Notes under the pieces: model-generated
Databases searched by the model: none
The model's input: the letters and a program-made list of their open reading frames with translations, nothing else
Told to the model about the DNA's origin: nothing
Source: Alphaproteobacteria bacterium
Lineage (GTDB): Bacteria > Pseudomonadota > Alphaproteobacteria > Micropepsales > Micropepsaceae
Direction of reading: 5' to 3'
Assembly: GCA_003158585.1 (NCBI GenBank)
Contig: PMKE01000094.1
Coordinates: forward strand, 21,536-64,798
Length of the DNA: 43,263 bases
Made by a program: the position numbers and the translations under genes
Shown here: one piece after another, positions 1,425 to 43,263 of the stretch
Position numbering within the stretch: the first letter of the stretch is position 1
Layout: each line of letters opens with the position of its first letter

Positions 1425-2171
1425 TTACTCGCCTAGCTTCGCGAGAAGCGCCTCGGACAGCTCATAATTGCCCGTGACACGCTGGACGTCGTCGTGGTCG
1501 TCGAGGGTATCGATCAGCTTGATCAACGTCTCGCCCACATCGTCTTTCACGGGAATGGTGTTCTGCGGCCGGAAGAAGATGCCCGAGGAGACCGGCGGGC
1601 CGAGCTTGGCCTCCAGCGCATCGCGGACGCCCGCGAAATCCTCCGGGGTGGTCAGGAACTCGTGCCCTTCTTCATCGGAGATGCATTCCTCCGCTCCGAC
1701 TTCGAGCGCCGTTTCGAGCATGGCGTCTTCGCTGCCCTTGTCCGCGGGATAGGCGATGACGCCGACCCGGTCGAACATGAAGGACACAGAGTTCGTCTCG
1801 CCCATCGCTCCGCCGAATTTCGAGAAGGCGGCGCGCACGTCCGCCACGGTGCGGGTGCGGTTGTCGGTCAGGCATTCCACGATGAGGGCGATACCGCCCG
1901 GGCCGTAGCCTTCGTAGCGTACCTCGTCGTAGTTCTCGGCATCGCCGCCCTGCCCCTTCTTGATGGCGCGCTCGATGTTGTCCTTCGGCATCGACTGGCT
2001 GCGCGCCGCAATGACGGCGGCCCGCAGGCGCGCGTTATGGTCCGGGTCAGGCAAGCCCATCTTGGATGCAACGATGATTTCGCGGGCAAGCTTGGAGAAG
2101 AGCTTGGAGCGCTCCTTGTTCGCCTTGCCTTTGCGGAACATGACGTTCTTGGCGTGGGAGTGGCCGGCCAT
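1425..2171 (-). CDS. yebC: YebC/TACO1-family protein (probable transcription/translation regulator)
   Basis: The 248-residue product has the standard YebC length and its invariant N-terminus [20 protein letters not shown]. Further conserved blocks are the N-terminal domain segment [16 protein letters not shown], the central [23 protein letters not shown], and the C-terminal [14 protein letters not shown]. Family members are described as DNA-binding regulators and more recently as factors easing ribosome stalling; which role applies here cannot be read from sequence. The open frame continues upstream to 2678, but the MAGHSHAKN start at 2171 is conserved and has a purine-rich AGAAGAAG ahead of it, so the upstream part is not counted as coding. 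yebC next to ruvCAB is a common arrangement. Confidence 0.95.
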
Positions 2172-2425
2172 CGGAAAACTTCTTCTATGAGGGGTTTGGC
2201 GGGCGCTGAGATAGCCGGGTAGCATGGAGGTTTTCAAGCCTCGCACTGGCGGCGCCGGAGCATCTATGCCTGGAGGCCCAGCCGGCCCGATGCACAAGGC
2301 ATAGATAATTATTTTCCAACCTCTGCCTCCCCCCTCGGAGGAGGGAAGGTAAGCCGGCATGAAGACCCAAACATCAGATGGGTATCGAATCGGCCGTGAC
2401 AAGGTCCCAGCGATTCGCAGCCCGC
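2172..2425. other. Intergenic region upstream of yebC with a small G/C-rich hairpin
   Basis: This 254-base stretch separates yebC from the OpgC-type gene. It holds an AT-rich patch near 2300-2320 and a short palindrome of the form CCTCC...GGAGG near 2328-2345. The palindrome resembles the ends of the larger intergenic repeat upstream of thiE. I see no convincing gene; the open frames across it are continuations or shadows of the neighbours. Confidence 0.4.
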
Positions 2426-3604
2426 TCAGAGCCGCCGGTCGAAGCGTTGGCGTTCGACGACAGGCACCGGTACCTCCCGACTTGCCGGCAGAGAAAGCAG
2501 GCGTCCGCCGTTGCGGGCCCACTGAAGATAGGCGGCGAAGACAAACTGAAGGCCGACCCCAATAACGCACAACGCCGTCTGCAGCCATGCGTTCTGCCCG
2601 TCCAGGAACGACGCCAGGAGAGTAAGGCTTGAGAGCAGCGCACCGAAGCAGAAGACCTGCAATGAGGATTGCCCGCACCAGACGACAAGCAGCGTAGGCC
2701 AGTAACGCAGCAAGGCCCCGCGGGGCGGCAGTAATCGGCCGACGACCAAAGCAAGCGCCAACAAACTGACGATACGCAGGGGCTGGAGCGAACTCTTATC
2801 GAGCGGCAGATCGGCCGTACGGAGCAAGGGGATGGCGGGGTTTATCCCATACAGAACGATGCTCAACTGGAGGACGGCGATTATTCCCGTCAGGGCTGCG
2901 GCGGCCCAGAACAGCAGCCGGGAATCGAGGAACGCCATCTGCCCCTTCAACCTCGGATGGCCGAATACGGCGCCGAGCACGAAAAGGAACTGCCAGGCGA
3001 AGGGATTGAAGAACCAGTGTTCGCCGATGGTGATCGTCAGATTGAGGCTGAAAACCTGCACTGACAGCCAGAGCGCGAAGGAAGGCACGAGCACATACCA
3101 CACGTTCCGAGCCAATCCGGCGAGCGCCAGCGGGAAGAACGCCAGCAACAGAACATAGGACGGCAGAATATCCAGATAAGCGGGCTGGAAACGCAGGATC
3201 AGCGCCTGTCCCACCATCTCCAAGGGATATTCGAAGAACTGGGAGATGCGGAAGGGCGCAATCAGGTTCCAGTCGGCGTTCAACAACAAGAAGACGCTGA
3301 CCTCGATCAGGATCAACGCAAGCAGCAGGAGCTGGGCGGCGTAGACGACCAAGGCACGCCGCAGCACCCTGCGGGCTGCCGCGAAGAAGCCTTGCTGCAT
3401 CATGAGGCGTCCGTAGACGAGCGCCGCAACGAAGCCGGAGATGAAGAAGAACACCTCGGCCGCGTCGGCAAAGGCATAGGCGTGCAGCGTGTACGGTTCG
3501 AAGATGTTCTTCGGCACGTGATCGATGAAGATGATCAGTAGCGCGAGACCGCGCAGAAAATCGATGCGCTCGTCGCGCCTTGACGTGACGGCCCTTGCGA
3601 TCAT
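2426..3604 (-). CDS. OpgC-type polytopic membrane acyltransferase
   Basis: The product is a ~392-residue integral membrane protein of the OpgC/acyltransferase-3-like type. In proteobacteria such proteins add succinyl or similar groups to periplasmic glucans; the actual substrate here is unknown. It starts near [19 protein letters not shown], with the characteristic R-x-D-F-L-R-G-hydrophobic first helix followed by [14 protein letters not shown]. About ten hydrophobic segments follow. The phrase [16 protein letters not shown] (about 65-80) and [18 protein letters not shown] (about 210-227) are typical of OpgC. An in-frame start exists at 3724, but the extra sequence is low-complexity and Arg/Pro-rich, so 3604 is preferred. 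It has no operon partner. Confidence 0.82.
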
Positions 3605-3869
3605 CCCGGTGCGGATGCTGTTGAAAAAGCTACTCGACAAACAAAGATCTCCGGAAGCGGACCGCCGCGGCGGCGGTCGTCCGTGCGGCGGGCGCACTCT
3701 CGGGTAATCGGCAGAAGAAAACAAAGTGAATCTTTTGCCGCGCCGGTGCCAGATGTCGCGTGGCTGGCCGCGAAAATACGTATTACCGAGGCTCTATCTG
3801 CCTCTATCGCCCACAAAAAACATCTTAAGTGAGGTGAGCCTGGGTCATTGCGGCAAAATCTTGGCGTCG

Positions 3870-3891
3870 AAAAAAAACGAACTCGCGTTCG
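3870..3891 (-). terminator. Probable rho-independent terminator of the GPH-GH94 operon
   Basis: Reading on the minus strand just after the GH94 stop, a short hairpin CGAAC-GCGA-GTTCG is followed by eight T residues. The stem is only five base pairs but the T-run is perfect and the position, 5 bases after the stop codon, is right for the end of the two-gene sugar operon. Confidence 0.5.
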
Positions 3892-3895
3892 GTGT

Positions 3896-6289
3896 TCACC
3901 CCATTTCCACGACGACCTGATTCTCTGCGGCCAGCTTGTCGGCGGGGATAAGGTTGCCCGGAAGCGGCGAGCCATTCAGGACGAGCTTCTTCACACCCTT
4001 CTGGACGCCCGCGGGATTGCGCACTTCCACATGTACCTTCCTGCCGCGGAAGAGGCGCGTCGCCTTAAAGCCCTTCCACGAGGCGGGTATGCAGGGATCG
4101 ATCCTGAGGCCGCCGTAATCTGGCCGGATGCCGAGGATGTATTGCGTAGCAGCGTAATACGACCAAGCGGCCGATCCGGAGAGCCACGGCACGCGCGAGG
4201 CGCCAGAGCGCGGGCTCGCCGTCGAATGCGTGAACTGGCAATAGACATAAGGCTCGATCTCGCGGATTTCGGCGCGCTCGTTCCAGGCGGCCGGCATCGT
4301 GGCGCGGAAATATCGCCAGGCGAGGTCGCCGTGACCCAGCATAGTTTCGGCAATTACCGCCCAGCCTTGGATGTGGGTGAAGATGGAGCCGTTCTCTTTC
4401 ATGCCTGGATTAAAGAGGACCGCGCGCATGACCTGCATGTCGGTCTCGACGAAGGGCGGTGCGCAAATCATCAGCCCGTTCTCGGTGGCGAGCCTCTCCT
4501 GCATCGCCTGCATGGCGGAGGCCGCGCGCCCCGCGTCGGCATGCCCGCTCAGCACGGCCCAGGATTGGGGGCTGAGGAAAATGCTGCCTTCTTTGTTCTC
4601 GCGAGAGCCGAATTTGGTGCCGTCGCCGCCATAGGCGCGCAGATACCAATCGCCGTCCCAGGCGTATTCGCGCAGGGCACGATCGAGACCTTCAAGGCGT
4701 TCTTCCGTCCAGGCCTCTTCGTCGCCGATGCCGAGGAGGCGACAAACTTCGATATAAACCGCCAGCGCATAGCGGAGCTGGAATCCCACAAACACCGTCT
4801 CACCCTTCTCGCCGAGACGGATGCAATCGTTCCAGTCGGCTGAGAGGCCGCACGGCAACCCGTGTATGCCGACGCGCTTCAGATTGAACGCGATGGCCCG
4901 CTTCAAATGACCGAGCACCGTGTCCTCGCCCTTATCCGCATAGGGCAGCACCTTGTGGAAGAAGGCGACATCGCCCGTTTCCTTGACGTAGGCGGGGACG
5001 GCGTTGAACAGCCACATGCAGTCGTCGGAGCGGTATTCCATCTCCCTCGGCGCCTGCTCGTGACCCGGGTGGTGGGCGAACTGCTTGACCACCGGCATGG
5101 CCCCACCCGTGGAAACCTGACCCGTGATCATCAACTCGAGACGTTTCACGGCCTCGGCGGGAATGGCGTGCAGCACGCCCAGCATGTCCTGCACGGTGTC
5201 GCGATAGCCGAGCCCGTCGCGTTCGCCCGCATAGATGAGGCTCGCCGCGCGCGACCAGGCATAGGTGACGAGGCAGTTGAACGGCCCCCACATCGCCAGC
5301 ATGGAGTTGAAGGCGGGATCGGGCGTTTCGGCTTCGAACCCGGCCATGCGCCCGTGCCAATAGGCCTTGAGGCGCTTCAGTTCGTCGTCGACCTTTGCGG
5401 GGTTCTTGAATTCGGCGGCGGCGCTGCGGCCTTCCTCGCGCGCCCGACCCACGCCCATCAGGACGAGGAATTCCTTCGTCTCGCCGGGCTTGAGTTCGAT
5501 ATGGGTTTCGAGCACGCCGCAACCGTTGTCGCCCACCGCCAGCGAATTGGTGCAGCGACCGCGCTCTAAGACGGCGGGTTTCGCATAACTCCCGTAAGGC
5601 CCCAGGAACGCGGTGCGGTCGGTGTCGTAGCCCGCGACCTCGGCGCCGACGAGGGCTAGGAAGCTGTGGCGGCCCTGATCGGGTTCCTCGAAGTTCTCCG
5701 GCTTCAAGGGAATGTGGACATTGGTGCCGTGGTCGATGATGCCGTCTTCGACGGACATCCGCACGATGAACTGCGAGTACTGGAGATTGACGAGGTCGTT
5801 GTAGGCGCTCCAATTGCCGGCATATTCGACATAGGTGAAGGCGGCGAGCCGGCGCGGCTTCCTGCCCGTGTTGGTGAGCTTGACGCGCCAGCATTCGAAA
5901 TCGCGGCCGAGGGGGACAAAGTAAGTCGTCTCAGAGCGGATGCTGGAATATTCCGAAGCGATGACGGTATAGGCGCTGCCGTGCCGGCATTCCGACTTGA
6001 ATTGGTCGAGCGGCTTGCCCACGGGTTGCCAGGAGGCAGACCAGTAATCGCCGCTTTCTTCGTCGCGAAGATAGATATATCGGCCCGGCTGATCGAGCGG
6101 CACGGCGTTGAAGCGCAGACGCGTGAAGCGGCCTTGCGCCGCGGATTTGTAGAAGCTGTAGCCGCCGGCATTGTTGGTGATGATGGCGCCGTATTCGGTG
6201 GAGCCGAGATAATTGCTCCACGAGCGGGGCGTATCCGGCCTTGTGATGACGTATTCCTTGTTGGCGTCGTCGAAATAACCGAATTGCAT
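3896..6289 (-). CDS. GH94 family disaccharide phosphorylase (cellobiose phosphorylase-like)
   Basis: The 797-residue product belongs to GH94 (formerly glycosyltransferase family 36). These cytoplasmic enzymes cleave beta-linked disaccharides with phosphate to give a sugar-1-phosphate and a free sugar. Visible signatures are the N-terminal beta-sandwich start MQFGYFDDANKEYVITRPDTP, the helical-barrel motif GLGYRDTVQDMLGV, the catalytic aspartate block GLSADWNDC, and the C-terminal YILGIRPDYGGLRIDPCIP. The length matches cellobiose and chitobiose phosphorylases. The partner is a GPH symporter one base upstream, indicating import then phosphorolysis, which saves one ATP per disaccharide. Cellobiose is the most likely substrate but laminaribiose or other beta-linked disaccharides are not excluded. 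Confidence 0.93.
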   Translation of the reverse strand: MQFGYFDDANKEYVITRPDTPRSWSNYLGSTEYGAIITNNAGGYSFYKSAAQGRFTRLRFNAVPLDQPGRYIYLRDEESGDYWSASWQPVGKPLDQFKSECRHGSAYTVIASEYSSIRSETTYFVPLGRDFECWRVKLTNTGRKPRRLAAFTYVEYAGNWSAYNDLVNLQYSQFIVRMSVEDGIIDHGTNVHIPLKPENFEEPDQGRHSFLALVGAEVAGYDTDRTAFLGPYGSYAKPAVLERGRCTNSLAVGDNGCGVLETHIELKPGETKEFLVLMGVGRAREEGRSAAAEFKNPAKVDDELKRLKAYWHGRMAGFEAETPDPAFNSMLAMWGPFNCLVTYAWSRAASLIYAGERDGLGYRDTVQDMLGVLHAIPAEAVKRLELMITGQVSTGGAMPVVKQFAHHPGHEQAPREMEYRSDDCMWLFNAVPAYVKETGDVAFFHKVLPYADKGEDTVLGHLKRAIAFNLKRVGIHGLPCGLSADWNDCIRLGEKGETVFVGFQLRYALAVYIEVCRLLGIGDEEAWTEERLEGLDRALREYAWDGDWYLRAYGGDGTKFGSRENKEGSIFLSPQSWAVLSGHADAGRAASAMQAMQERLATENGLMICAPPFVETDMQVMRAVLFNPGMKENGSIFTHIQGWAVIAETMLGHGDLAWRYFRATMPAAWNERAEIREIEPYVYCQFTHSTASPRSGASRVPWLSGSAAWSYYAATQYILGIRPDYGGLRIDPCIPASWKGFKATRLFRGRKVHVEVRNPAGVQKGVKKLVLNGSPLPGNLIPADKLAAENQVVVEMG

Positions 6290-8110: not shown

Positions 8111-8872
8111 CTAATCGAAGCGATAGGAATCCATCCTGAGCGATCCGAAGGTCGCGCTGGAGTGCAACCGTGTGACCGTGCCGCCGCCCGCACTATAGGC
8201 GACGAACAAAGGTACGAGATGCTCTTCGGTAGGATGAGCCCGTGCGGCTTCGGGTGCTCGGGTGCGGTAATTCACGAGGTCGTCTTCGCGCCGCTCCATC
8301 AGGGCGCCGTGCATCCACGACGCGAATGCGCGCGACCAGTCGGGTTCCGGGCCGCCGTTCCAATCGATGGCACGCAGATTATGCACAAAACCGCCGCTGC
8401 CAAGGATCAGCACATCCTCGCGCAACGGCGCCAAGGCGCGGCCTAGCGCGATATGGTGACCGGCTCCGAGCCTACTCTGCACCGAAAGCTGAACCACAGG
8501 AATATCGGCCGCGGGATAGGCCAGCATCAGCGGCACCCAGGCGCCGTGATCGAGCCCGCGCCTGCGATCGAGTCCTGCATCGAACCCCGCGCCGCTCAGA
8601 AGCAGGGCCGTCCGTTCGGCAAGCGCCGGTGTGCCCGGCGCTTCATAGCGAAGCTCGTAAAGTGGTTTCGGAAAGCCATAGAAATCATGGATGGTTTCGT
8701 TCCGTGCGACGGCGTTCAGGGCTGGTGTTTCGGTATCCCAGTGGGCCGAGACAGCAAGGATGGCCGAGGGCTTTTCAAACGCACCGCCAAGGCCGCGCAG
8801 AAAGTCACGTGCCGGGCAATCGTCGAACGGCAGCGTGGGGGAGCCGTGGGAAACGAACAAAGCTGGCAGCAT
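8111..8872 (-). CDS. Class III extradiol ring-cleavage dioxygenase family protein (YgiD/DODA-like)
   Basis: The 253-residue product belongs to the LigB-like extradiol dioxygenase family that includes E. coli YgiD (4,5-DOPA dioxygenase). Metal-binding positions are visible: His9 in LFVSHGSPTL, His in AVSAHWDTE (about 44), and the LDHGAWVPLM motif (about 107-116). Near the C-terminus is the catalytic-type histidine pair of HPTEEHLVPLF. The fold is complete and of normal length. The physiological substrate is unknown for most members; a catechol-type phenol is implied. It is a single gene, with divergent space of about 290 bases before the PEP-CTERM gene. Confidence 0.88.
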   Translation of the reverse strand: MLPALFVSHGSPTLPFDDCPARDFLRGLGGAFEKPSAILAVSAHWDTETPALNAVARNETIHDFYGFPKPLYELRYEAPGTPALAERTALLLSGAGFDAGLDRRRGLDHGAWVPLMLAYPAADIPVVQLSVQSRLGAGHHIALGRALAPLREDVLILGSGGFVHNLRAIDWNGGPEPDWSRAFASWMHGALMERREDDLVNYRTRAPEAARAHPTEEHLVPLFVAYSAGGGTVTRLHSSATFGSLRMDSYRFD

Positions 8873-9106
8873 GGCGGCGACCTCTTGTTCAACTCAAATG
8901 GGATGCTGCGAGCCGAACTGCAAAACGTGTCATCGCGCCGTCCTCCAGATGTTTCCGTTACCATATGTCTCGCGATGCAAGCGCACGCCATCTGCTGCGC
9001 ACTCGCGTCAGCACAAGGGCGCGCAACTGTCGCCAGAATTTACAGTTTTCAAAGTCGACACCATCGTCATTTTCCTAACTAATTGGAATCCGTCAACTTT
9101 CCTGTT

Positions 9107-9121
9107 TGGCACGTACTTTGC
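9107..9121 (+). promoter_or_regulatory. Sigma-54 (RpoN) promoter of the PEP-CTERM gene
   Basis: The sequence TGGCACGTACTTTGC fits the sigma-54 -24/-12 consensus (TGGCACG, four bases, TTGC) with no mismatch and correct GG-to-GC spacing. A transcription start about 12 bases downstream would give a leader of roughly 28 bases. That leader carries AGGGG 8-12 bases before the ATG at 9161. PEP-CTERM genes in other proteobacteria are known to be controlled through RpoN and the PrsK/PrsR system, so the context reinforces the call. No enhancer site could be recognised by eye. Confidence 0.82.
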
Positions 9122-9160
9122 GAAATACGCATCGCAACATAATTCCTAGGGGCTATAGAA

Positions 9161-9985
9161 ATGTCCATTAAAGTTTCCATTTGGCTGCGTAGGGCAGTGA
9201 TCGCGGCAGCGGCCGCGTTCGCTATGCAGGCGGTACCTGCGAGTGCCGGCACGATCATTCTCGAGGGCAGCGATGCCATCGGGTTCCACTGCGCGTTCGG
9301 CGATGCCGGTGCCTGTACGTATCGCGACGAGGCCTGGACGGCCATCGGCGGTGCTGATTCGCGGCCGATCGCCGTGTTCGGCAATACGGTGAACGGCAGC
9401 GCGGTTGGCTCCGGCACGCATGCCGTCGTGGATTTTGCCAACGTCGCAGCAGCGGGAAGCCTGAGCAACTACGTTGCACTGTACTTCCTGGCCGGGAGTG
9501 GCTGCTGCACGGAAGACGACTCGCTCATCATCGGCAATGAAGCGGCCGTCTCGGCGTATCTGACGGCAGGCGGCACTGTCATGATCGAAAACTACATCGG
9601 CGGTCCGGCGTGGGACTTCGCGGTCGGCACAGGCGGCACGGGTAATGCCCATGTGGCAGGCGTCGGCGGCGGCCTGGGCGGCGGAAGCTGCGATGATGGC
9701 GAAGCGGTCACGGCAGATGGCATGTCCAACGGTTTCGTCCAACCGCCAGTGCTCAGCTGCTGGGAACACCAGGGTTACGAAAAGAGCTTCTATGCTGCGC
9801 TTGGCTTCACGCATAGCTTCTTCGATGCAGCTCCGTCGATGGGCGGTGCGGCAGGCTTCTCGGGTCTGCTTTCCAGCGGCGTGACAGTTTCGCACGATAC
9901 GCCGGAACCGCTGACCCTAACGCTGTTTGGCGCCGGACTTGCGGGCCTCGCGGGCCTTCGCCGCCGCCGGAAGAAGGCTGCGTAA
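9161..9985 (+). CDS. PEP-CTERM sorting domain protein (exported, surface/matrix)
   Basis: The 274-residue protein has a Sec signal peptide (about 1-29, positively charged SIWLRR, hydrophobic core, ending PASAG). The body is Gly/Ala/Asp-rich with several cysteines (CCTEDD, SCDDGE, SCWEH). It ends with a classical PEP-CTERM tail: TPEPLTLTLFGAGLAGLAGL followed by RRRRKKAA. PEP-CTERM proteins are processed by an exosortase at the inner membrane and usually end up in the extracellular matrix. No exosortase gene is in the window. It is a single transcription unit, with the sigma-54 promoter upstream and a strong terminator 20 bases after the stop. The body matches no enzyme family I recognise. Confidence 0.88.
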   Translation: MSIKVSIWLRRAVIAAAAAFAMQAVPASAGTIILEGSDAIGFHCAFGDAGACTYRDEAWTAIGGADSRPIAVFGNTVNGSAVGSGTHAVVDFANVAAAGSLSNYVALYFLAGSGCCTEDDSLIIGNEAAVSAYLTAGGTVMIENYIGGPAWDFAVGTGGTGNAHVAGVGGGLGGGSCDDGEAVTADGMSNGFVQPPVLSCWEHQGYEKSFYAALGFTHSFFDAAPSMGGAAGFSGLLSSGVTVSHDTPEPLTLTLFGAGLAGLAGLRRRRKKAA

Positions 9986-10004
9986 GAACTTTATTCCCAA
10001 CTGG

Positions 10005-10035
10005 AAAACGGCGGCCCTTGTGCCGCCGTTTTTTT
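10005..10035 (+). terminator. Strong rho-independent terminator, likely bidirectional
   Basis: A 7-base-pair GC stem (CGGCGGC / GCCGCCG, loop of six) is flanked by AAAA and TTTTTTT. It ends the PEP-CTERM transcript. Because of the flanking A-run, it can equally end the convergent PD40 gene on the minus strand, whose stop is at 10053. Confidence 0.88.
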
Positions 10036-10052
10036 GCGTGCCGCAGGCGCGT

Positions 10053-10907
10053 TTAGTCGAGCAGTTTGTAACTCACGAAAGCGAACTGCCGCCCGTCCGG
10101 GGACCACGAGGGAACGTTGAGCGTCCCCTGTCCGCCGATCAGCCGCGCGATCACTCGCGGCGCGCCACCGATGGTCGGCACGACGCGCAACGTCACCTGC
10201 TTGTTCGGCGGATGATCGCCCACGGCCACGTCGGTGCCGAAGGAGATAAAGACGATCCAGCGCCCGTCGGGCGAGGGATGGGGAAACCAGTCGCGCGTCT
10301 CGTCCTCGAAGGTGAGCTGCTCGGGATCGTCGCCGTCGGACCGCATGCGCCAGAGCTTCATGTTCCCGCTGCGCATCGAGTTGAAATAGATATAGCGTCC
10401 GTCAGGCGAGTAATCGGGGCCGTCGTCGAGGCATTGCGTTTCCGTCAGCCGTCGCTCAGGTCCGCCATCCACCGGACAGGTGTAGATGTTGAGAATGCGG
10501 CTGCCGCCGCGCGCCGCGACATAAGCGAGCGTCTTTCCGTCCGGCGACCAGCCGTGCCAGTAGGACGGTCCCTCCGGTGTGACGAGAAGCGGGGCGCCGC
10601 CCTCGGTGCGCAATAGCGAGATGCGCGATTGGCCGTCGGGATTCGACTTGTCGCTGAGGGCGATCGTGCTGCCGTCGGGGGACAGGCCGTGGTCGTTGTT
10701 GAGCCCCACGAGCGGGCCCGTGTCGATCTTCTCGGGCGCGCCGCCGCCAACAGGAAGGCGATAGAGCAGCCCTGAGCTGTTGAAGAGGAAATGGGAGCCG
10801 TCGCGCGACCAGTTCGGCGCCTCGATGCGGCCCTCGGTGCGGTAGACGGCATGGCGCACGCCCGATGCAAAATCCATGACTTCGAGCGTGCTTTCGATCC
10901 TGCCCAA
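10053..10907 (-). CDS. PD40/TolB-like beta-propeller protein
   Basis: The ~284-residue protein is built of repeated beta-propeller blades of the TolB/WD40-like PD40 type. Repeated motifs are WSRDGSHFLF, LSPDGSTIAL, WSPDGKTLAY, YSPDGRYIYF, PSPDGRWIVF and WSPDGRQFAF, roughly every 40-45 residues. No signal peptide is visible, so a cytoplasmic location is likely, unlike TolB itself. The start is set at a TTG (10907) because AGGGAG lies six bases upstream and the protein then begins GRIESTLEVMD; an earlier TTG at 10943 would add 12 low-quality residues. Function is unknown; such proteins are usually binding platforms or peptidase-like relatives. It is convergent with the PEP-CTERM gene. Confidence 0.8.
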   Translation of the reverse strand: MGRIESTLEVMDFASGVRHAVYRTEGRIEAPNWSRDGSHFLFNSSGLLYRLPVGGGAPEKIDTGPLVGLNNDHGLSPDGSTIALSDKSNPDGQSRISLLRTEGGAPLLVTPEGPSYWHGWSPDGKTLAYVAARGGSRILNIYTCPVDGGPERRLTETQCLDDGPDYSPDGRYIYFNSMRSGNMKLWRMRSDGDDPEQLTFEDETRDWFPHPSPDGRWIVFISFGTDVAVGDHPPNKQVTLRVVPTIGGAPRVIARLIGGQGTLNVPSWSPDGRQFAFVSYKLLD

Positions 10908-11236
10908 CGGCGTCTCCCTGCGTTCGGCACTTCGACTCGCCAAGCTCGCTTACAAGCCTGTACGGCGTCAACACATGCGAAGCGCGCACAACCGTTGCGC
11001 GTTTTGGCTGGACGCGTTTGACGTATTCGCGGATGACGACGCCGTTCCGGATTTGCCTCACATGGTAGATCACGACGACGGGGGGTAAGCTGTCGCAGGC
11101 CAAGTCAACGACCGGGATATTCCGATAGGATGTCACGGCAGATATTCGAATTAAGTATTGTGTCCCCGTAAATATAACACCGGGCATTCACTCAGCAGTG
11201 AACAATGATTTCACACTCCACGCTCGCGGGTACTGA
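10908..11236. other. Intergenic region with REP-like remnants upstream of the PD40 gene
   Basis: No gene is convincing here. One open frame on the minus strand runs through it into the PD40 gene in another frame, but it is probably a shadow. On the minus strand near 11150-11178 the stretch ATTTACGGGGACACAATACT resembles sequences often seen with REP-associated (RAYT) transposases; no transposase gene is present. The stretch AGTGAACAATG (11197-11207) is the left arm of an inverted repeat around the GH53 gene. Confidence 0.35.
11197..11207 (+). repeat. Left arm of an 11-base inverted repeat flanking the GH53 gene
   Basis: AGTGAACAATG here is exactly the reverse complement of CATTGTTCACT at 12507-12517. 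The pair encloses the GH53 gene at a distance of about 1.3 kb. An 11-base match across this distance could be chance, but it coincides with REP-like sequence on both sides. Confidence 0.4.
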
Positions 11237-12319
11237 CTACAGAGGATCCATGGCCGCGGTGAACTGGCCCTGCATGTTCAACGCCCCCATCCGGTAGTCC
11301 TGCCAATTGGGATAAGCGTTGGGTTCCCAGTAGAAAACACCGAGACCATTGGCGCCAAGTGCCTTGGTCCGCGCCACTATGTCGGCAATCATCGCCTTTG
11401 CAGTCGCTGCGTCGTCCCAGGGAAAACCGATCTCGACTACCATGACCGGTTTGCCGTAGCGGAAGACCATATCGGTCATGGTCGCACCGATCTGGCCGTT
11501 GCGCGAGGCCCAGTCGGTGGCGCCTAAGTTCGGATAACTCGGGTAATGGGAGAGACCGATGACATCGACCTTGCCGCCGGCTGCGATGAAGTTGTCGAAG
11601 AACCAGCGGCAACCGGCGTCGTCACCGCTGTTGGCCACATGGATGATTACTAGGGCATTAGGATAGACGGCTTTGGCCGCGGCGTAGCCTTGGTTGGTCA
11701 GGGCGGCAATGACGTCGAAATGCGGCGTCTGGGCGTCGGGCCACATCAGCCCCGCGTTGATCTCGTTGCCGACCTCAACCCAGCTAACCTCGATCCCGGC
11801 GCCTTTAAGGGCGGTGAGGACGTTGAAAGTATGCTGATAAACATCATTCTTGAGCTCCGCCATATTGTGGGAAGCCCAGGCGGCGGGTTTGATCTGGTGG
11901 CTCGGATCGGCCCAGGTGTCTGAATAGTGGAAGTCGATCATAATCCTCTGACCAAGTGCCGCGACTCGCCGCGCCTTAGCCAGGACATCGGGAATTGTGT
12001 TGTAACGCCCGGCCGGATTGACCCAAACCCTGAGCCGGATCGCATTGACGCCGAGATTGGAAAGCAGAACAAAAGGATCGGTTTTAACTCCAGCGGCGTT
12101 GTAGAAAGCGGCACCCTTCGCTTCCTGTTCAGTCACCCAACTAATGTCTGCACCTGAGGCGAACGGCGTCCTTCCGTCAGATCCGGAACTAACCAAGCTC
12201 GTGCCTGCGCTGGCGCCGGGTACTAGGCCACCGCATGCGCCAAGGACCACAGCGAGAAGCGCCGCGGCCAAGACACAGGCTATTGCACCCAAGTGGCCAC
12301 GATCAAACCGCGCTTTCAT
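11237..12319 (-). CDS. GH53 arabinogalactan endo-beta-1,4-galactanase, lipoprotein
   Basis: The ~360-residue product is an exported family 53 glycoside hydrolase that cuts beta-1,4-galactan side chains of pectin. A lipoprotein signal ends in lipobox LGAC (Cys29). The TIM-barrel domain (about 52-360) shows VNAIRLRVWVNP, IMIDFHYSDTWADPSHQ, the acid/base Glu186 in WVEVGNEIN, LSHYP, and the nucleophile Glu296 in VVEIGFPW. Start at 12319 is chosen because GGCGAGGTG lies just upstream; an in-frame codon at 12361 would spoil the signal peptide. Family assignment is firm. The gene stands alone, flanked by an 11-base inverted repeat and REP-like sequence, which hints at acquisition as a unit. Confidence 0.93.
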   Translation of the reverse strand: MKARFDRGHLGAIACVLAAALLAVVLGACGGLVPGASAGTSLVSSGSDGRTPFASGADISWVTEQEAKGAAFYNAAGVKTDPFVLLSNLGVNAIRLRVWVNPAGRYNTIPDVLAKARRVAALGQRIMIDFHYSDTWADPSHQIKPAAWASHNMAELKNDVYQHTFNVLTALKGAGIEVSWVEVGNEINAGLMWPDAQTPHFDVIAALTNQGYAAAKAVYPNALVIIHVANSGDDAGCRWFFDNFIAAGGKVDVIGLSHYPSYPNLGATDWASRNGQIGATMTDMVFRYGKPVMVVEIGFPWDDAATAKAMIADIVARTKALGANGLGVFYWEPNAYPNWQDYRMGALNMQGQFTAAMDPL

Positions 12320-36668: not shown

Positions 36669-37004
36669 TCAGATCGACTGCTTCAATTCCTTCGCGGCGC
36701 GGAAGGCAACTTTCTTCGACGCCTTGATCTTGATCGCTTCGCCGGTGGCCGGGTTGCGGCCCATACGCGCCGCGCGCTTCCTGACCTGCAGGATGCCAAG
36801 CCCATTGAGGCGCACGCGGACGCCCTTCTTGAGGTGCTTGGTGATCGCGCTGATTGCGTCGTCCAAGTACGCCAACGACGCCTTGTTCGACATATCGTGC
36901 TTAGGTGCCAACTGCGCGGCCAACTGGCGCGTAGAGACCGTCTCGACTTTGGGCTTCGCGGCGGCGACGGGTGCGGCGCCGGGAACGACTGCGGCTTTTG
37001 CCAT
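36669..37004 (-). CDS. HU-family DNA-binding protein with N-terminal extension
   Basis: The 111-residue product is a nucleoid protein of the HU/IHF family. The HU domain (about 24-111) contains STRQLAAQLAPKHDMSNKASLAYLDDAISAITKHLKKGVRVRLNGLGILQVRKRAARMGRNPATGEAIKI in broken form, with the DNA-binding arm signature GRNPATGE. Unlike ordinary 90-residue HU, it starts with about 20 Ala/Pro/Val/Lys residues. Such tails in other HU-like proteins modulate DNA compaction. A good SD (GAGGAA) precedes the ATG; a strong terminator follows. Confidence 0.88.
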   Translation of the reverse strand: MAKAAVVPGAAPVAAAKPKVETVSTRQLAAQLAPKHDMSNKASLAYLDDAISAITKHLKKGVRVRLNGLGILQVRKRAARMGRNPATGEAIKIKASKKVAFRAAKELKQSI

Positions 37005-37595
37005 TGGAATTTTCCTCTGCGAATCAAAAGAGACCTTATTCTAAAGCATTTTCTGCAAACACAAGACGGGAGATGTGCAAAAAACTGCGGAAAAATGGGC
37101 TATTTCGGGGGATGAAGCGGGTTTGCGCCGTGCGGCGCGTTGAATCACGCCCTTCCGCAGACGGGGGCGTCCTCTTCGGAAGCCCATATTTTCGGTATTT
37201 GACGAACCTCGGCGGCACTTCAAGCAAAGCCTCTCTCCCGATCTACGCCGTCATTGGCGGGCGACGACTTCACCCGTGGCGACAGCCTAGGCCGTCTGAC
37301 GCGCAGACGAAGCCCTGCGTAAGGCGGCGATGCCGGGGCACATGGAAGTAGTCGCCGCGCTTTTCTCAATCATCCTTTTCCCGAAGAGCGGGTAAACACG
37401 TTCTGCACTTTATTATCATTATATGCTATACACCCTTATTGCCGCATTATTCAGATTACTTTGGGGTTTGCTTGCGGCAACCCTGCGCGCTTTGTACCCT
37501 AGTTTATTCGTGTTCGAGTTCGGCGACGGATTCGAGTTCCGCGTTTGTTTGGGGCGCATGCGGAAAACAGTCGCCGCCGCCGCGCGGGGCTTGAT
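37005..37595. other. 591-base divergent control region between HU-like gene and CXXX-peptide operon
   Basis: No gene is supported. On the HU side (minus strand) a candidate promoter has TAGAAT at 37038-37043 with TTGTGT or CTTGTG at about 37059-37065. The central part contains long-range palindromes such as CTGCGGAA (37084-37091) / TTCCGCAG (37151-37158). From 37400 to 37460 the sequence becomes markedly AT-rich, with a Fur-like ATTATCATTAT and -10-like TATGCTATAC, presumably the operon promoter. An 8-base stem follows in the leader (37439-37446 with 37473-37480). Confidence 0.5.
37405..37432 (+). promoter_or_regulatory. AT-rich promoter with Fur-box-like core ahead of the CXXX-peptide operon
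   Basis: ATTATCATTAT at 37412-37422 fits the central part of the Fur consensus; read on the other strand it is ATAATGATAAT, 11 consecutive consensus bases. The best 19-base alignment on the plus strand is 12 of 19. TATGCT (37422-37427) and TATACA (37427-37432) are -10 candidates overlapping it. This would leave a leader of about 165 bases before the first gene. Regulator identity is inference. Confidence 0.42.
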
Positions 37596-38615
37596 GTGAT
37601 TGCGTCCGGTAAACACGCACTGGTGATCCTGGACAAGGGTTCGGTCCCGTTCTGCTACTACGAGAACCCGCATTTCCATTCCCGCGCAGAACCGCAATGG
37701 ATGCCCGCCGCCCTGCTGACGCGCATCGTCGGATATGCGCGCAAGAAGCAAATCGCCCTTACCTTCCTTTTGGGAAAGACGCGGCCGCCGGCGCAACTCG
37801 AACGGCTGATCGCCTCCCACGCCAAGATCGTTCCGCCCCCGCTCCACGAGGTCTATCCCGACGCGGTGTTGGTGCTAGACGCGGAAGAGCGTTCCTCCTT
37901 TGCCGCCTTGAGCAGGTCTCTCGACCGGAACGTCATCCTGCGCGTCTCCAGCCCCAAGGGATGCAGCGACCTCGTTGAATCCCTCATCGGCAAATTCAGG
38001 CGCCTCAGCCTGCATCTGGTGGGCCAGGAGTATTTTGGGGCGGCGGAACTTGCCGCCTACGAACGCGAGTTGAGCAAGATCTCCAAAAAGCTGGCCGAGC
38101 AGTTCCGCGACGGCGAGACGCTCGAGTTCAACGTCCTGACCGACCGGATGATGCTGACTGTGATGCGCAACTGCGGCGCGGGCATCGATCACCTGACGAT
38201 TGCGCCCAACGGAAAAAGTTACATCTGTCCGGGGTTCTATTACGATAACGAGGAAGACTTCGTCGGCGTGTTCGACGACAAGACGGGGATTGCCGCCGGG
38301 CCGGTGCGCGGCACCGAGCTTTCGCGCGCGCCGCTCTGCTCGCGCTGCGATGCTTTCCACTGCAAGCGCTGCATCTATCTGAACCGGAAGACGACCCTGG
38401 AACTGAACGTTCCCTCCGAGCAGCAATGCGCGGTCTCGCACGTCGAACGGAAAGCCTCGCGGCAGCTGTTGACCGGCCTCGGTTCTCTCGAGCCCTTCCG
38501 CAGGATGCCGCGCATCCCGGAATTGAATTATCGCGATCCGCTCGAATGCATCGACGCCCCGCCGCGCGATGCCGGGCAGCGCGCTACCGATCCGTCCACC
38601 GATCCGATGCTGTGA
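37596..38615 (+). CDS. CXXX-repeat peptide maturase-like protein (SPASM-type cysteines, no radical SAM core)
   Basis: The ~339-residue product resembles proteins annotated as CXXX repeat peptide maturase. Its N-terminus HALVILDKGSVPFCYYENP fits that family's typical start (xxLDxxSVxFCxYxN). The N-terminal ~190 residues have no CxxxCxxC radical SAM motif. The C-terminal part has a SPASM-like cysteine pattern: Cys193, then Gly206 and Cys211 (CX12GX4C), Cys248-x2-Cys251-x4-Cys256-x2-Cys259, and Cys278. So it probably binds Fe-S clusters and helps the true radical SAM enzyme encoded downstream. The start is uncertain: GTG at 37596 is used, a TTG at 37545 adds 17 Arg-rich residues. It heads the operon, 8 bases before the next gene. 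Confidence 0.78.
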   Translation: MIASGKHALVILDKGSVPFCYYENPHFHSRAEPQWMPAALLTRIVGYARKKQIALTFLLGKTRPPAQLERLIASHAKIVPPPLHEVYPDAVLVLDAEERSSFAALSRSLDRNVILRVSSPKGCSDLVESLIGKFRRLSLHLVGQEYFGAAELAAYERELSKISKKLAEQFRDGETLEFNVLTDRMMLTVMRNCGAGIDHLTIAPNGKSYICPGFYYDNEEDFVGVFDDKTGIAAGPVRGTELSRAPLCSRCDAFHCKRCIYLNRKTTLELNVPSEQQCAVSHVERKASRQLLTGLGSLEPFRRMPRIPELNYRDPLECIDAPPRDAGQRATDPSTDPML

Positions 38616-38623
38616 GGCCCCGC

Positions 38624-38980
38624 ATGCCGAAAAAGGTCAAAGCGAAGAAAATCCCGGCCAAAAGCGCCCCGATGGAGCCGAGCGCCGTCGTCGTCGGCAA
38701 GGTGAGCCTCAAGGAGCGCGACGAGATCCAGGCTCTGTTCGAGCGCCGCAACGGCCTCCTCGAACTTGTCCAATCCCTGTCGCAGAACGGCAGCGGCATG
38801 CTGGACAACGCCGCCTTCTACGAAAAAGTGGTTGCCGACCTCGGCAAGACGACCACCCGCTTCAAGAAGTGGTGGGACGAAAAAGCCAAGGCATACGGCT
38901 GGCAAGGCAGGCCCGGCTGGCAATGGTCGATCGACTTCGACAGCTGCCAGATCAGCCTGAACAAACCCAATAAGTCCTGA
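38624..38980 (+). CDS. CXXX-repeat peptide modification system accessory protein
   Basis: The 118-residue product has a Lys/Pro-rich N-terminus (about 1-20). A compact domain follows: VGKVSLKERDEIQALFERRNGLLELVQSL, a middle FYEKVVADLGKTTTRFKKWWDEKAKAYGW, and an end WSIDFDSCQISLN. This matches my recollection of the small accessory protein that goes with CXXX-repeat peptide maturases (ERDEIQxLFERxNxLxEL... FxKWWDEKxxxYxW). Its role is unknown; a leader-binding or scaffold function is a guess. It sits 8 bases after the maturase-like gene and 17 bases before the first precursor gene. Confidence 0.75.
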   Translation: MPKKVKAKKIPAKSAPMEPSAVVVGKVSLKERDEIQALFERRNGLLELVQSLSQNGSGMLDNAAFYEKVVADLGKTTTRFKKWWDEKAKAYGWQGRPGWQWSIDFDSCQISLNKPNKS

Positions 38981-38997
38981 CGAAAAGGAATACCGAC

Positions 38998-39255
38998 ATG
39001 TCGAAGAAAACGGAATCCGGCAGCAAGATGGACCGCCGCGGCTTCCTGAAATCGGGAGCGAAGGTCATTCCTGCACTGGCCGTGCTTGGGATCGGTCTCA
39101 CTGCCGTGTCCACGCCGGCGCGTGCCGACTGCTTCGGCTCCTGCAATGCCTCGTGCGCCGACAACTGCGTCGAGAGTTGCAAGGGCGACTGCATGGGCGA
39201 CTGCAAGGGTACCTGCGGCGGTTGCGACAACACCTGCACGAGCGACAGCAAGTAA
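38998..39255 (+). CDS. CXXX-repeat precursor peptide 1 (Tat-like leader, 10 Cys)
   Basis: The 85-residue precursor has a leader of 43 residues (MDRRGFLKSGAKVIPALAVL, then ...TPARA) with a twin-arginine motif and an A-x-A type cleavage site before Asp44. The core begins at Cys45 and repeats Cys every four residues (45, 49, 53, 57, 61, 65, 69, 73). It then breaks register with a CGGC (73-76) and ends at Cys80. Spacer residues are Gly, Asp, Ser, Asn and Lys. It is the shortest of three tandem precursors and the only one with a register break. AAGGAA precedes the ATG. Confidence 0.85.
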   Translation: MSKKTESGSKMDRRGFLKSGAKVIPALAVLGIGLTAVSTPARADCFGSCNASCADNCVESCKGDCMGDCKGTCGGCDNTCTSDSK

Positions 39256-39297
39256 ATCACGCGCTTCCGAGGCGCCGACCTGGGTGAGGAATTTGCC

Positions 39298-39657
39298 ATG
39301 ACGCGGAAACTCGACCGGCGCGGCTTTCTCAAGAGCGGAAGCAAGGTCATCCCTGCCATTGCATTTCTCGGGCTGGGCCTGGGGGTGCCGCTGCCGGCGC
39401 GCGCCGATTGCGATTCCGGATGCCAAGGCAGTTGCTCCGGAGGTTGTGACGGAAGCTGTACCGGCGGGTGTCAGGACAGCTGCGAAGCACAATGCGCCGA
39501 CAACTGCTCGGGCTCGTGCAAAGCGGCCTGCGCGACAGATTGCGAGTCGAGCTGCACCGCCGCGTGCGCGGCCGACTGCGTAACCAGCTGTCAGGGCGAA
39601 TGCAGAGGGACGTGTGAGACAAGCTGCCAAGGCAGTCTCACCGCACCATCCAATTAA
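39298..39657 (+). CDS. CXXX-repeat precursor peptide 2 (Tat-like leader, 19 Cys)
   Basis: The 119-residue precursor has a 36-residue leader (DRRGFLKSGSKVIPAIAF... PLPARA). Nineteen cysteines follow in perfect CXXX spacing from Cys38 to Cys110, and a short tail QGSLTAPSN. The intervening triplets are Gly/Ser/Asp/Ala/Thr-rich. The leader is almost the same as in the neighbours (DRRxFLKSGxKVxP), so all three are probably recognised by the same enzymes. Modification would occur in the cytoplasm before Tat export, as expected for oxygen-sensitive radical SAM chemistry. Confidence 0.87.
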   Translation: MTRKLDRRGFLKSGSKVIPAIAFLGLGLGVPLPARADCDSGCQGSCSGGCDGSCTGGCQDSCEAQCADNCSGSCKAACATDCESSCTAACAADCVTSCQGECRGTCETSCQGSLTAPSN

Positions 39658-39746
39658 GCCTGATGCCGATGATGGGAATTGACGAAACGAAAGGTGAGTG
39701 ATCCGCGTACGATTTTCTGCAGAACGGGAAAAATCGAGGGCACGAC

Positions 39747-40139
39747 ATGAAAAAACAGTCCAAAACCGGCAAGAACCTGGACAGGCGGTTGTTTCTCAAA
39801 TCCGGCGGCAAGGTGCTTCCCACCTTCGCTGTCATCGGGCTCGGGCTCACCGTTCCGCTGATCGCGCGCGCCGACTGCGAAGGCAGTTGCGAGGGCGATT
39901 GCTCGGGAAGTTGCGAGGGAAGCTGCTCGGGCAACTGCACCGCCAACTGCGCCAACGACTGCTCCGGCGGCTGCGAGAACGGCTGCATGGAAAGCTGCAC
40001 CGCCAATTGCATGAACGAATGCGAAGGCGCCTGCTCCGGCTCCTGCAAGGACGACTGCCTGAACGAATGCCTGCACACTTGTATCGGTAGCTGCAGTTTC
40101 TATTGCACGGCCGCCTGTCAGAGCAGTAGCCAAGGCTGA
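39747..40139 (+). CDS. CXXX-repeat precursor peptide 3 (Tat-like leader, 21 Cys)
   Basis: The 130-residue precursor carries a 42-residue leader (LDRRLFLKSGGKVLPTFAVI... PLIARA). Twenty-one cysteines follow at exact four-residue spacing from Cys44 to Cys124, ending CQSSSQG. Compared with peptide 2 the triplets are richer in Asn, Glu and Met, including a hydrophobic stretch CLHTCIGSCSFYC near the end. The open frame starts cleanly behind GAGGG. It is the last precursor before the radical SAM gene, 77 bases upstream of it. Confidence 0.87.
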   Translation: MKKQSKTGKNLDRRLFLKSGGKVLPTFAVIGLGLTVPLIARADCEGSCEGDCSGSCEGSCSGNCTANCANDCSGGCENGCMESCTANCMNECEGACSGSCKDDCLNECLHTCIGSCSFYCTAACQSSSQG

Positions 40140-40216
40140 AAAAGCGCCACGGCCGCGAGATCGGCGGGATCAAGTTTGTTACGCTCCCGAAGTCACGGGA
40201 ACACCGCGAGGATAAG

Positions 40217-41392
40217 ATGGTGGAGCTTCGGGAGCCGAGACGGGAAGAGCGCCCAAAATCCTGGCAGGAAGGACGCGCCAAGACGGTGACGTTCATCGTC
40301 ACCGAGGATTGCCAGCTTCGCTGCAAGTACTGCTACCTGGCGGGCAAGAACAAGACCAGCAAGATGAACTTCGAGATCGCGCGGGCGACCATCGACCATC
40401 TTCTGCGCAATCGCGAGCAATTCAACGAAGGTTCGGTGATCTGGGATTTCATCGGCGGCGAGCCGTTCCTGGAAATCGACCTGATCGACCGCATTTCGGA
40501 CTATGCGAAGCTGCGGATGTACGAAACGGACCATCCCTGGTTCAACAACTACCGCTTCAGCTTCTCCACCAACGGCCTGCTCTACGGCAAGGACAAGGTC
40601 CAGCGCTACATCGCCAAGAACCGCAGCCACATCTCGATCGGCCTCAGCATCGACGGAACGAAGCGCAAGCACGATTCTCAGCGCATCTTTCCCAACGGCC
40701 GGGGCTCCTACGACGCGGTGGCCAAGAACATCCCGCTATGGCTGGCGCAATTCCCCGCCGCCTCGACCAAGGCGACGATCTCCCACGACGACATCCCCTT
40801 CATCAAGGAAAGCGTGGCGCACCTATTCTCGCTGGGCATCAGGGTCGTCAACATGAACGTCGTCAACGAGGACGTCTGGCAGGACGGCGACGACAAGCTG
40901 TTCGAGAAGCAGCTCATGGAGCTGGCCGACACCATCATCGACAACGACCTGACACGCGAACACACCTGCTCGCTGTTTTCGAGATTCATCGGCAAACCGC
41001 TCAGCCCTGAGGACGACCGCAACTGGTGCGGCGCCGGCAAGATGCTGGCAGTGGACAGCGACGGCATTTTTTATCCCTGTGTGCGTTTCGCGCCCTACTC
41101 GCTGACGCACCAGCTCGGCAGGGCCATCGGCAACTGCTACGACGGCATCGACCGCAACAAGCTGCGCCCGTTCCTGGCGATGACAAGGCGCTCGCAGTCG
41201 AGCGAAGAGTGCCTCGGCTGCGAGGTCGCCAGCGGCTGCTCGTGGTGCAGCGGCTGCAATTACGATGTGTCGAAAAGCGCGACGATCTACGAACGCGCCA
41301 CGTTCCTCTGTAAAATGCACAAGGCGCGCGTCAGAGCGAACCGGTATTTCTGGAAAAAGCTGGACAAGCAGACGCGCGCCGCGCCGCGTTGA
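40217..41392 (+). CDS. Radical SAM/SPASM peptide maturase, CXXX-repeat target type
   Basis: The 391-residue enzyme carries the radical SAM motif CQLRCKYC (Cys32, Cys36, Cys39; CX3CX2C) after TFIVTE, and the SAM-binding GGEP (80-83). The SPASM region has Cys271-x11-Gly-x4-Cys288, then Cys332-x2-Cys335-x5-Cys341-x2-Cys344-x2-Cys347, and Cys365, enough for two auxiliary Fe-S clusters. Such SPASM enzymes make thioether or C-C crosslinks in ribosomal peptides; the precise reaction on the CXXX repeats is unknown. GAGGATAAG precedes the ATG. It is the last gene of the peptide operon, before a Tat-type GH43. Confidence 0.92.
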   Translation: MVELREPRREERPKSWQEGRAKTVTFIVTEDCQLRCKYCYLAGKNKTSKMNFEIARATIDHLLRNREQFNEGSVIWDFIGGEPFLEIDLIDRISDYAKLRMYETDHPWFNNYRFSFSTNGLLYGKDKVQRYIAKNRSHISIGLSIDGTKRKHDSQRIFPNGRGSYDAVAKNIPLWLAQFPAASTKATISHDDIPFIKESVAHLFSLGIRVVNMNVVNEDVWQDGDDKLFEKQLMELADTIIDNDLTREHTCSLFSRFIGKPLSPEDDRNWCGAGKMLAVDSDGIFYPCVRFAPYSLTHQLGRAIGNCYDGIDRNKLRPFLAMTRRSQSSEECLGCEVASGCSWCSGCNYDVSKSATIYERATFLCKMHKARVRANRYFWKKLDKQTRAAPR

Positions 41393-41454: not shown

Positions 41455-43083
41455 ATGCCGATGTTCAATCGTCGCCAAACCCTGGGGTCCTTCCTGACCG
41501 GCGCTGCCGCGCTCGCTGCGCCGGGAGCACACGCCAAACCGCGGGGTACTGCGGCGGCCATATCCGCCTCCGGTTTGGAATGGGCCGCGATGAAATGGGC
41601 GCGCGGCATCGAAGGTCAGCGAAAGGCCGACCTCGGCAACGGCACGTTCCTCAATCCCATCCTGAGCGGCGACCACGCCGATCCCAGCATCCTGAAGGAA
41701 GGCAACGACTATTACCTGACCTTCTCGACCTTCGATGCCTATCCCGGGCTCGCGATCTGGCATTCGCGCGATCTGGTGAACTGGCAGCCGGTCGGTTCCG
41801 CGCTGAAAAAGCCGATCGGTTCGGTATGGGCGCCGGATTTGTGCAGGCACGAAGGGCGATACTACATCTACATCCCGACGCGCGGTGCGCAGCGCAACAC
41901 CATCTGGGTCATCACCGCAGAGAACATTCACGGACCCTGGAGCGATCCGGTCGATCTCGATCTGCCGCGCCACATCGATCCCAATCATGTCGTCGGCGAA
42001 GACGGCAGGCGCTATCTAGCACTGAGCGGCGGCGACCTCGTCGCCTTGACGCCGGACGGCATGGCGACCGCGGGCGCCGTGGAGCACATCTACGATCCGT
42101 GGCGTTATCCCGAGGATTGGGTGGTCGAGTCCTTCTCGCCCGAGGGACCGAAGATCTTTCGGCATGGAGAGTATTATTACATGCTGACGGCCGTCGGCGG
42201 CACGGCAGGACCTCCGACCGGCCACATGGTTGTCGCAGCGCGGGCGCGTTCGTTGCACGGCCCGTGGGAGAATTCACCGAACAATCCCCTGGTGCGGACC
42301 ACATCGGCGGCAGAGAAGTGGTGGTCGCGCGGCCACGCCTCGGCAGTGGAAGGGCCTGACGGAAGCTGGTGGCTGATCTATCACGGCTACGAAAACGGCT
42401 TCTGGACGCTGGGCCGCCAGACGCTTCTGGCGCCCATGAGCTGGACGAAGGACGGCTGGATCAGGGCCGGAGGCGGCGATCTCTCGCATCCGCTGCGTAA
42501 GCCGGTGGGCGGCAGCGCCGTGCCGCACGGCATGGCTTTGTCGGACGATTTCAGGGCCGACCGCTTCGGCAGCCTGTGGAGCTTTTACGATCCTGCCACG
42601 AACGAAATGGAGCGCGTGCGCCATGATGCGGGCTCGCTCGTTCTCAAAGGCAAGGGAACCCAGCCCTTCGACAGTTCGCCCATGAGTTTCCGCGCAGGAG
42701 ATCTTGCTTACGAAGTCGAGACCGGGATCGAGATTTCCGGCGGAGCGCAGGCGGGGCTGCTGCTGTTCTACAGCCGCAGACTCTATTGCGGGCTCGGCTT
42801 CGCAGCCGACAAGTTCGTGATGCACCGTTACGGCCTGGAGCGCGTTCTGGCAAAGTCCGAAGGGATCGCAAGCCGTTTGTTCCTGCGCCTGCGCAACGAC
42901 CGCAACATCGTCACCATCCATTACAGTCCCGACCGGACGCATTGGACGAAGTTCGGCGTGCAGATGGAAGTCTCAGGCTACCATCACAACACGGCAGGCG
43001 ACTTCCTCTCGCTGCGACCTGCCGTCTATGCGGCCGGACCCGGAGAGGCCCGGTTCCTGGGAGTGCAATACAGGGCGTTGTGA
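41455..43083 (+). CDS. Tat-exported GH43 glycoside hydrolase (beta-xylosidase/arabinanase type)
   Basis: The 542-residue protein has a Tat-like signal (FNRRQTLGSFLTGAAALAA, cleavage near AHA at 27). The five-bladed GH43 propeller (about 60-350) has catalytic Asp76 in DHADPSI, Asp175 in HIDPN (pKa-tuning) and the acid Glu230 in SFSPEGPKIF, plus WAPDLC. From about 360 a beta-sandwich domain of the xylosidase C-terminal type follows (ALSDDFRADRFGSLWSFYDP...GLLLFYS...LFLRLRNDRNIVTIHYSPDRTHWTKFG). It attacks xylan or arabinan side chains in the periplasm or outside. It is 62 bases after the radical SAM gene, possibly but not certainly in its operon. Confidence 0.9.
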   Translation: MPMFNRRQTLGSFLTGAAALAAPGAHAKPRGTAAAISASGLEWAAMKWARGIEGQRKADLGNGTFLNPILSGDHADPSILKEGNDYYLTFSTFDAYPGLAIWHSRDLVNWQPVGSALKKPIGSVWAPDLCRHEGRYYIYIPTRGAQRNTIWVITAENIHGPWSDPVDLDLPRHIDPNHVVGEDGRRYLALSGGDLVALTPDGMATAGAVEHIYDPWRYPEDWVVESFSPEGPKIFRHGEYYYMLTAVGGTAGPPTGHMVVAARARSLHGPWENSPNNPLVRTTSAAEKWWSRGHASAVEGPDGSWWLIYHGYENGFWTLGRQTLLAPMSWTKDGWIRAGGGDLSHPLRKPVGGSAVPHGMALSDDFRADRFGSLWSFYDPATNEMERVRHDAGSLVLKGKGTQPFDSSPMSFRAGDLAYEVETGIEISGGAQAGLLLFYSRRLYCGLGFAADKFVMHRYGLERVLAKSEGIASRLFLRLRNDRNIVTIHYSPDRTHWTKFGVQMEVSGYHHNTAGDFLSLRPAVYAAGPGEARFLGVQYRAL

Positions 43084-43093
43084 GTGCGGGCGG

Positions 43094-43263
43094 TTACGCC
43101 TCGGTGTTGCCGGTATCGGCGCTGTCCTTGCGCTCGGCGATACGGGCCGACTTGCCGCGGCGGCCGCGCAGATAATAGAGCTTGGCGCGACGTGCACGGC
43201 CCTTGCGGACCACGATCACGGAATCGACCAGCGGCGAATAGATCGGGAAGACGCGCTCGACGC
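43094..43263 (-). CDS. rplS: 50S ribosomal protein L19, C-terminal part (cut by window edge)
   Basis: The visible ~56 residues are the C-terminal half of bL19: [44 protein letters not shown], followed by an acidic tail [11 protein letters not shown]. The N-terminal half lies beyond the end of the window. L19 sits at the 30S-50S interface. It converges with the GH43 gene, leaving only 10 bases between the stops. Confidence 0.95.

Follow-up and report, generated by a model that had tools for sequence, protein, structure and literature searches.

What does a bacterium make from a locus in which a radical S-adenosylmethionine (SAM)/SPASM enzyme stands beside small proteins with a cysteine at every fourth residue, and where does the product go? 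The question is raised by six genes in a 43,263-nucleotide stretch of alphaproteobacterial DNA (contig PMKE01000094.1, Micropepsaceae; the whole stretch is called the window here). The original prediction, made from the sequence alone, was a complete CXXX-repeat peptide maturation locus whose exported products would be heavily crosslinked or metal-binding. Judged by profile membership, the locus is a genuine, intact CXXX-repeat peptide modification system, of a kind already known by computational definition. With somewhat better than even confidence, we read it as a system acting in trans to modify and export envelope proteins with cysteine at every fourth position.

Membership was assessed against the CXXX-repeat models of NCBIfam (TIGR04114-TIGR04119) at their curated cut-offs. 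All six proteins scored above them (Table 1), which makes the locus a new member of this computationally defined system and bears out the predicted family assignment. Among the six are the active enzyme and the SPASM-only protein, whose profile scores had been chosen beforehand as the check on the prediction. The TIGR04114 cut-off was also exceeded by two of the three precursors. The genes are co-oriented, as predicted, with gaps of 8, 17, 42, 89 and 77 nucleotides (nt). A sigma-70 promoter scan gave no candidate, and terminator-like sites were no commoner than in shuffled sequences. A literature search on the CXXX-repeat families, which did not cover Haft and Basu 2011, found no product or role described.

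Table 1. Genes of the CXXX-repeat locus, genes flanking it in the window, and unlinked precursors of the host genome (the last numbered within their own loci, L126 to L129).
Feature	Coordinates	Strand	Profile score and features
SPASM-only pseudo-radical-SAM partner	37596-38615	+	TIGR04119 ('CXXX repeat peptide maturase'), 212 bits, cut-off 150; GTG start, alternative TTG start possible at 37545
Accessory protein	38624-38980	+	TIGR04116, 83.8 bits, cut-off 50; helical hairpin with small sheet
Precursor 1	38998-39255	+	TIGR04117, 52.2 bits, cut-off 50; DRRGFLK, predicted ARA/DC cleavage site, then CXXX repeat core, run of 32 residues
Precursor 2	39298-39657	+	TIGR04117, 55.9 bits, cut-off 50; DRRGFLK, ARA/DC, CXXX run of 76 residues
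Precursor 3	39747-40139	+	TIGR04117, 58.3 bits, cut-off 50; DRRLFLK, ARA/DC, CXXX run of 84 residues
Active radical SAM/SPASM enzyme	40217-41392	+	TIGR04115, 596 bits, cut-off 350; CX3CX2C at residues 32-39, GGEP at 80-83, seven SPASM Cys
HU-like gene	36669-37004		
GH43 family gene	41455-43083		
rplS	43094-43263		
Unlinked precursor (L126)	3366-3662		twin-arginine signal
Unlinked precursor (L127)	3187-3471		twin-arginine signal
Unlinked precursor (L128)	3116-3757		twin-arginine signal
Unlinked precursor (L129)	3219-3458		twin-arginine signal

Relatives were collected in one GTDB genome scan with the enzyme, which gave 188 confirmed members; 80 loci, from Alphaproteobacteria, Bacteroidota, Acidobacteria, Fibrobacteres and others, were fetched and compared. 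Adding the window, once whole and once in part, gave a scanned set of 82 sequences, in which the enzyme was accompanied by the SPASM-only protein in 81, the accessory protein in 77 and CXXX open reading frames (ORFs) in 79, so that the predicted gene set is seen in related genomes as well. The enzyme is unusually conserved, the window protein sharing 57-64% identity with the aligned non-alphaproteobacterial members. Within the window's own order, the enzyme cut-off was passed in only 3 of 96 genomes. Genes in the window run SPASM-only protein, accessory protein, precursors, enzyme; the Bacteroidota order is precursor, enzyme, SPASM-only protein, accessory protein. The cassette lies between the HU-like gene and rplS, and likewise in locus L002, while at the same place in a sister genome (L120) only about 270 bp separate the HU gene from rplS, apparently an empty site. 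The system is thus patchy in its occurrence, and at this site was acquired or lost as one block.

The repeat cores agree with the prediction of a cysteine at every fourth residue. The CXXX runs of all three precursors are uninterrupted, and of about 2700 Cys-to-Cys steps in the pooled family ORFs 2347 are exactly four residues, so the periodicity is not due to chance. The intervening positions are variable; in the family ORFs X2 is mostly Gly (38-41%) and X3 mostly Ser, Gly or Thr. Crosslinks of the PapB type join Cys to Asp or Glu in a CX3D motif (PMC9413430). Since Asp or Glu occurs in only 22% of units family-wide (25 of 46 in the window), such bonds are not the general rule here. The position held by Asp in CX3D is occupied in the repeat by the next Cys. 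This Cys is a candidate acceptor, as are Ser or Thr side chains and the alpha carbons of small residues. Two CXXX precursors from other genomes (L060:5562-6986 and L068:5708-6976) extend at the C terminus into a long region that lacks the repeat and includes YVDLGLSVKWA; this region had no Pfam match and may be a surface domain joined to the repeat.

The motifs of the active enzyme are invariant in all 33 aligned sequences. Its profile matches to characterized families are to the PapB, SCIFF and QhpD models, with PapB the closest (NF047865, E 1e-58). By analogy with these maturases, the enzyme most likely forms thioethers with the repeat cysteines.

The first gene of the locus does encode a SPASM-cysteine protein, with all seven SPASM cysteines present besides Cys20, but its sequence makes a working radical SAM enzyme with normal SAM cleavage very unlikely. 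The TIGR04119 model spans only the C-terminal 200 residues, and the generic SPASM model TIGR04085 gave 16.4 bits, below its cut-off of 27. An AlphaFold (AF2) model of the whole protein (predicted local distance difference test, pLDDT, 88) has the radical SAM/SPASM fold over the full barrel; the best structural match was CteB (Z 21.1 over 281 residues), followed by TigE, ChlB and anSME, and the Foldseek match had an E value of 9e-9. On the loop of the first barrel strand, where CX3CX2C is expected, only the middle Cys is left. Across the family the motif reads [S/A]-x3-C-x-Y-[E/D/N] where the active enzyme has C-x3-C-x-Y-C (33 of 33), none of about 80 SPASM-only homologues has all three cysteines at that position, and GGEP is missing in the alignment with the active enzyme. 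Given this decay of the SAM-cluster motif, the NCBIfam word 'maturase' is misleading if taken to mean catalysis. The seven SPASM cysteines, by contrast with the SAM motif, are invariant in 37 of 37 aligned SPASM-only proteins. Profile comparison identifies the protein as a paralog of the active enzyme (95.7%, E 8.9e-9), and a Thermoguttaceae genome (L032) encodes a natural fusion of the two, one protein of 740 residues with both domains above cut-off. In a Prevotella-family sample of 201 genomes, 24 with the TIGR04115 enzyme and 177 without, TIGR04119 was found in 23 of the carriers and in none of the non-carriers.

A dedicated electron-relay or scaffold subunit is the role we propose for this partner. 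Each thioether that PapB forms leaves an electron behind in an auxiliary cluster, intermolecular transfer is needed to rearm the SAM cluster, and the transfer probably runs via the second auxiliary cluster (PMC10470005). Two SPASM cluster sites without a SAM cluster match the expected look of a dedicated shuttle in such a scheme, and by this analogy we infer that the SPASM-only protein may relay electrons. The predicted structure of the accessory protein (pLDDT 86) consists of a strand, two long helices and two strands, and a fold search gave no match above Z 7.2, with PqqD-like folds not among the matches listed, which is uninformative either way.

Export, also part of the prediction, is strongly supported by twin-arginine signals and by tatA-tatC genes within related loci. 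All three window precursors carry a DRRxFLK twin-arginine signal followed by a hydrophobic stretch and a predicted ARA/DC cleavage site, and RRxF[FLMI] is present in 113 of 121 precursor ORFs of the family; the other eight are mostly spurious or cut by contig ends, and one (L040) has a variant leader. Bacteroidota operons continue from the accessory gene into tatA and tatC of the twin-arginine translocation (Tat) pathway, with 43 of the 80 fetched loci encoding TatC and 44 encoding TatA; examples were confirmed with TIGR00945, TIGR01411 and Pfam. Most locus-linked TatC proteins form branches separate from those of the other TatC in their genomes. In the Prevotella-family sample, at least two TatC were found in 17 of 24 enzyme carriers and 9 of 177 non-carriers (Fisher p 3.9e-13). 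The nine genomes with at least two TatC and no TIGR04115 enzyme may use the second for another system, or it may mark a lost CXXX locus. The idea that Bacteroidota lack Tat, which would leave the RR motif as a mere leader, was rejected, as TatC was present in 44 of 46 hosts examined. From these features, the products very probably leave through Tat, and maturation in the cytoplasm before export is the preferred reading. About 40% of the precursors have a lipobox-like site, with acidic residues just after it in 34 of these 46, an arrangement that we take to recall the Bacteroidota surface-export signal. Leaders across phyla also share a Lys at +9 and Leu-Pro at +12/+13 from the first Arg, beyond the Tat consensus; these residues may form an enzyme-recognition part, giving the leader two roles.

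The substrates are not confined to the locus. Profile searches of the host genome found four further precursors on contigs C39, C9, C29 and C125, none linked to the locus. Each stands alone, with no other CXXX-system gene beside it, and resembles the locus precursors in its signal and core. Two are above the model cut-off outright, one is above it with neighbors counted and one is just below. The word 'complete' in the original prediction thus holds for the gene set, which is intact here, but not for the substrates, only three of the seven host precursors lying inside the locus. To judge from these assignments, seven scattered substrates in the host appear to share a single maturase set, unlike a compact antibiotic cluster. 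In the fetched loci there was no recurring protease, ATP-binding cassette (ABC) exporter, immunity gene or transporter other than tatA/tatC. Together with the lipobox-like signals, the lack of a recurring protease, ABC exporter and immunity gene leads us to infer that the products act as envelope proteins rather than as a secreted antibiotic.

A possible course of events can be put together from these observations. The active enzyme would act on the precursors, most likely forming thioethers with the repeat cysteines as PapB, CteB and QhpD do. The SPASM-only paralog, having lost the SAM cluster and kept both SPASM cluster sites, would pair with it and most likely carry electrons from and back to the enzyme over the many turnovers needed per precursor; alternatively, it would hold the long repetitive substrate. 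The TIGR04116 protein may help to deliver the substrate. The modified precursor would then leave through Tat by its twin-arginine signal, the strongly supported step, to be cut at ARA/DC in the window host or, in many Bacteroidota, probably turned into a lipoprotein by lipidation. In its most specific form, with the dead radical SAM/SPASM paralog as an obligate electron shuttle and the dispersed, highly crosslinked products exported in the folded state through Tat (a dedicated second TatAC in the case of Bacteroidota) as envelope or surface (lipo)proteins, this scheme is tentative, possible rather than probable.

Several points weigh against the general scheme. In the window host no tat genes are linked to the locus and just one TatC, of the ordinary type, is encoded on a different contig; elsewhere, a few locus-linked TatC branch among general TatC. 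The unlinked precursors were assigned by sequence only. The repeat conserves no residue that could be the acceptor, so that the PapB chemistry is not transferable whole, and no product of a CXXX system is known. The electron relay is argued by analogy, and a substrate scaffold fits the same facts. A SPASM-only protein that replaces a RiPP (ribosomally synthesized and post-translationally modified peptide) recognition element and threads the repeat through the enzyme would account for the barrel fold, the peptide-binding place of RiPP maturases, being wholly kept, for the fusion to the enzyme in L032, and for profile and fold searches having found no recognized leader-binding protein in the locus. 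We regard this main rival as somewhat unlikely, as a mere scaffold would need the invariant cluster-binding cysteines just for structure.

The chemistry and the destination of the product can each be read differently as well. Tat typically exports cofactor-loaded proteins, and Cys is the sole conserved residue of the repeat, with no type of acceptor conserved; the product could accordingly be an unmodified or lightly modified cysteine scaffold that binds metal or Fe-S clusters in the envelope, with the enzyme performing another reaction. The thioether-forming maturases that are the closest characterized relatives of the enzyme argue against this, and we consider it unlikely. Radical SAM RiPP enzymes often make antimicrobials, so a classical cluster for a secreted antimicrobial or signaling peptide comes to mind; yet no ABC exporter, leader peptidase or immunity gene recurs, Tat genes are present instead, lipobox-like precursors are common and the host precursors are scattered, which makes such a cluster very improbable. 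Least probable of all is that the RR motif is an enzyme-recognition leader only and export runs through Sec. The Lys and Leu-Pro of the leader are what this reading would explain, but it leaves aside the tatA-tatC genes inside Bacteroidota loci, the extra TatC co-occurring with the system and the signal-peptidase or lipobox sites after the hydrophobic stretch, and the leader may serve both roles. The trans-acting modification and export system is the reading that we retain.

A few neighboring features were noted. A gene of glycoside hydrolase family 43 (GH43; Pfam Glyco_hydro_43) with a twin-arginine-like N terminus begins 62 nt downstream of the enzyme, and a second copy lies at G000:C83. It was rejected as a component of the system because it is missing from the syntenic L002, where rplS directly follows the enzyme. 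Locus L002 has an additional ABC-transporter-like ORF at 2165-4012. In L026, region 8173-11754 contains, upstream of tatC, another, incomplete SPASM-only fragment (10132-10473), one more accessory gene and additional large precursors, which could reflect partial duplication or decay of the system.

To the profile-defined CXXX families, the comparison adds the probable Tat export, the degenerate SPASM partner and the apparent trans-acting maturation of many envelope proteins. With Tat export, the product is expected in the envelope rather than in the culture fluid. Cluster-based genome mining would miss most products of such a system, four of seven here. The degenerate partner offers a natural test of the intermolecular electron transfer claimed for SPASM enzymes such as PapB.

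Compared with known systems, the locus has the same gene set as the NCBIfam CXXX-repeat system; the gene order differs from that in Bacteroidota, which does not contradict membership. PapB and the freyrasin-type ranthipeptides are the nearest characterized enzyme family, and the CX3 register matches CX3D (PMC9413430). However, the enzyme scores 199 bits on NF047865, below the cut-off of 340, the window repeat has Cys rather than Asp or Glu at i+4, and a SPASM-only partner and Tat export are added. The SCIFF model TIGR03974 is likewise out of reach, at 119 bits against a cut-off of 425. CteB, the SCIFF thioether maturase (PDB 5WGG, 5WHY) that best matches the SPASM-only protein in structure, is an active radical SAM enzyme, whereas the SPASM-only protein lacks the SAM-cluster cysteines and GGEP. 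QhpD, the maturase of quinohemoprotein amine dehydrogenase (profile E 2.6e-35), offers a parallel of another kind, a SPASM enzyme that acts on an exported structural protein and not on an antibiotic. The QhpD system employs an ABC-type exporter and one fixed subunit, in contrast to Tat and the many repeat substrates here.

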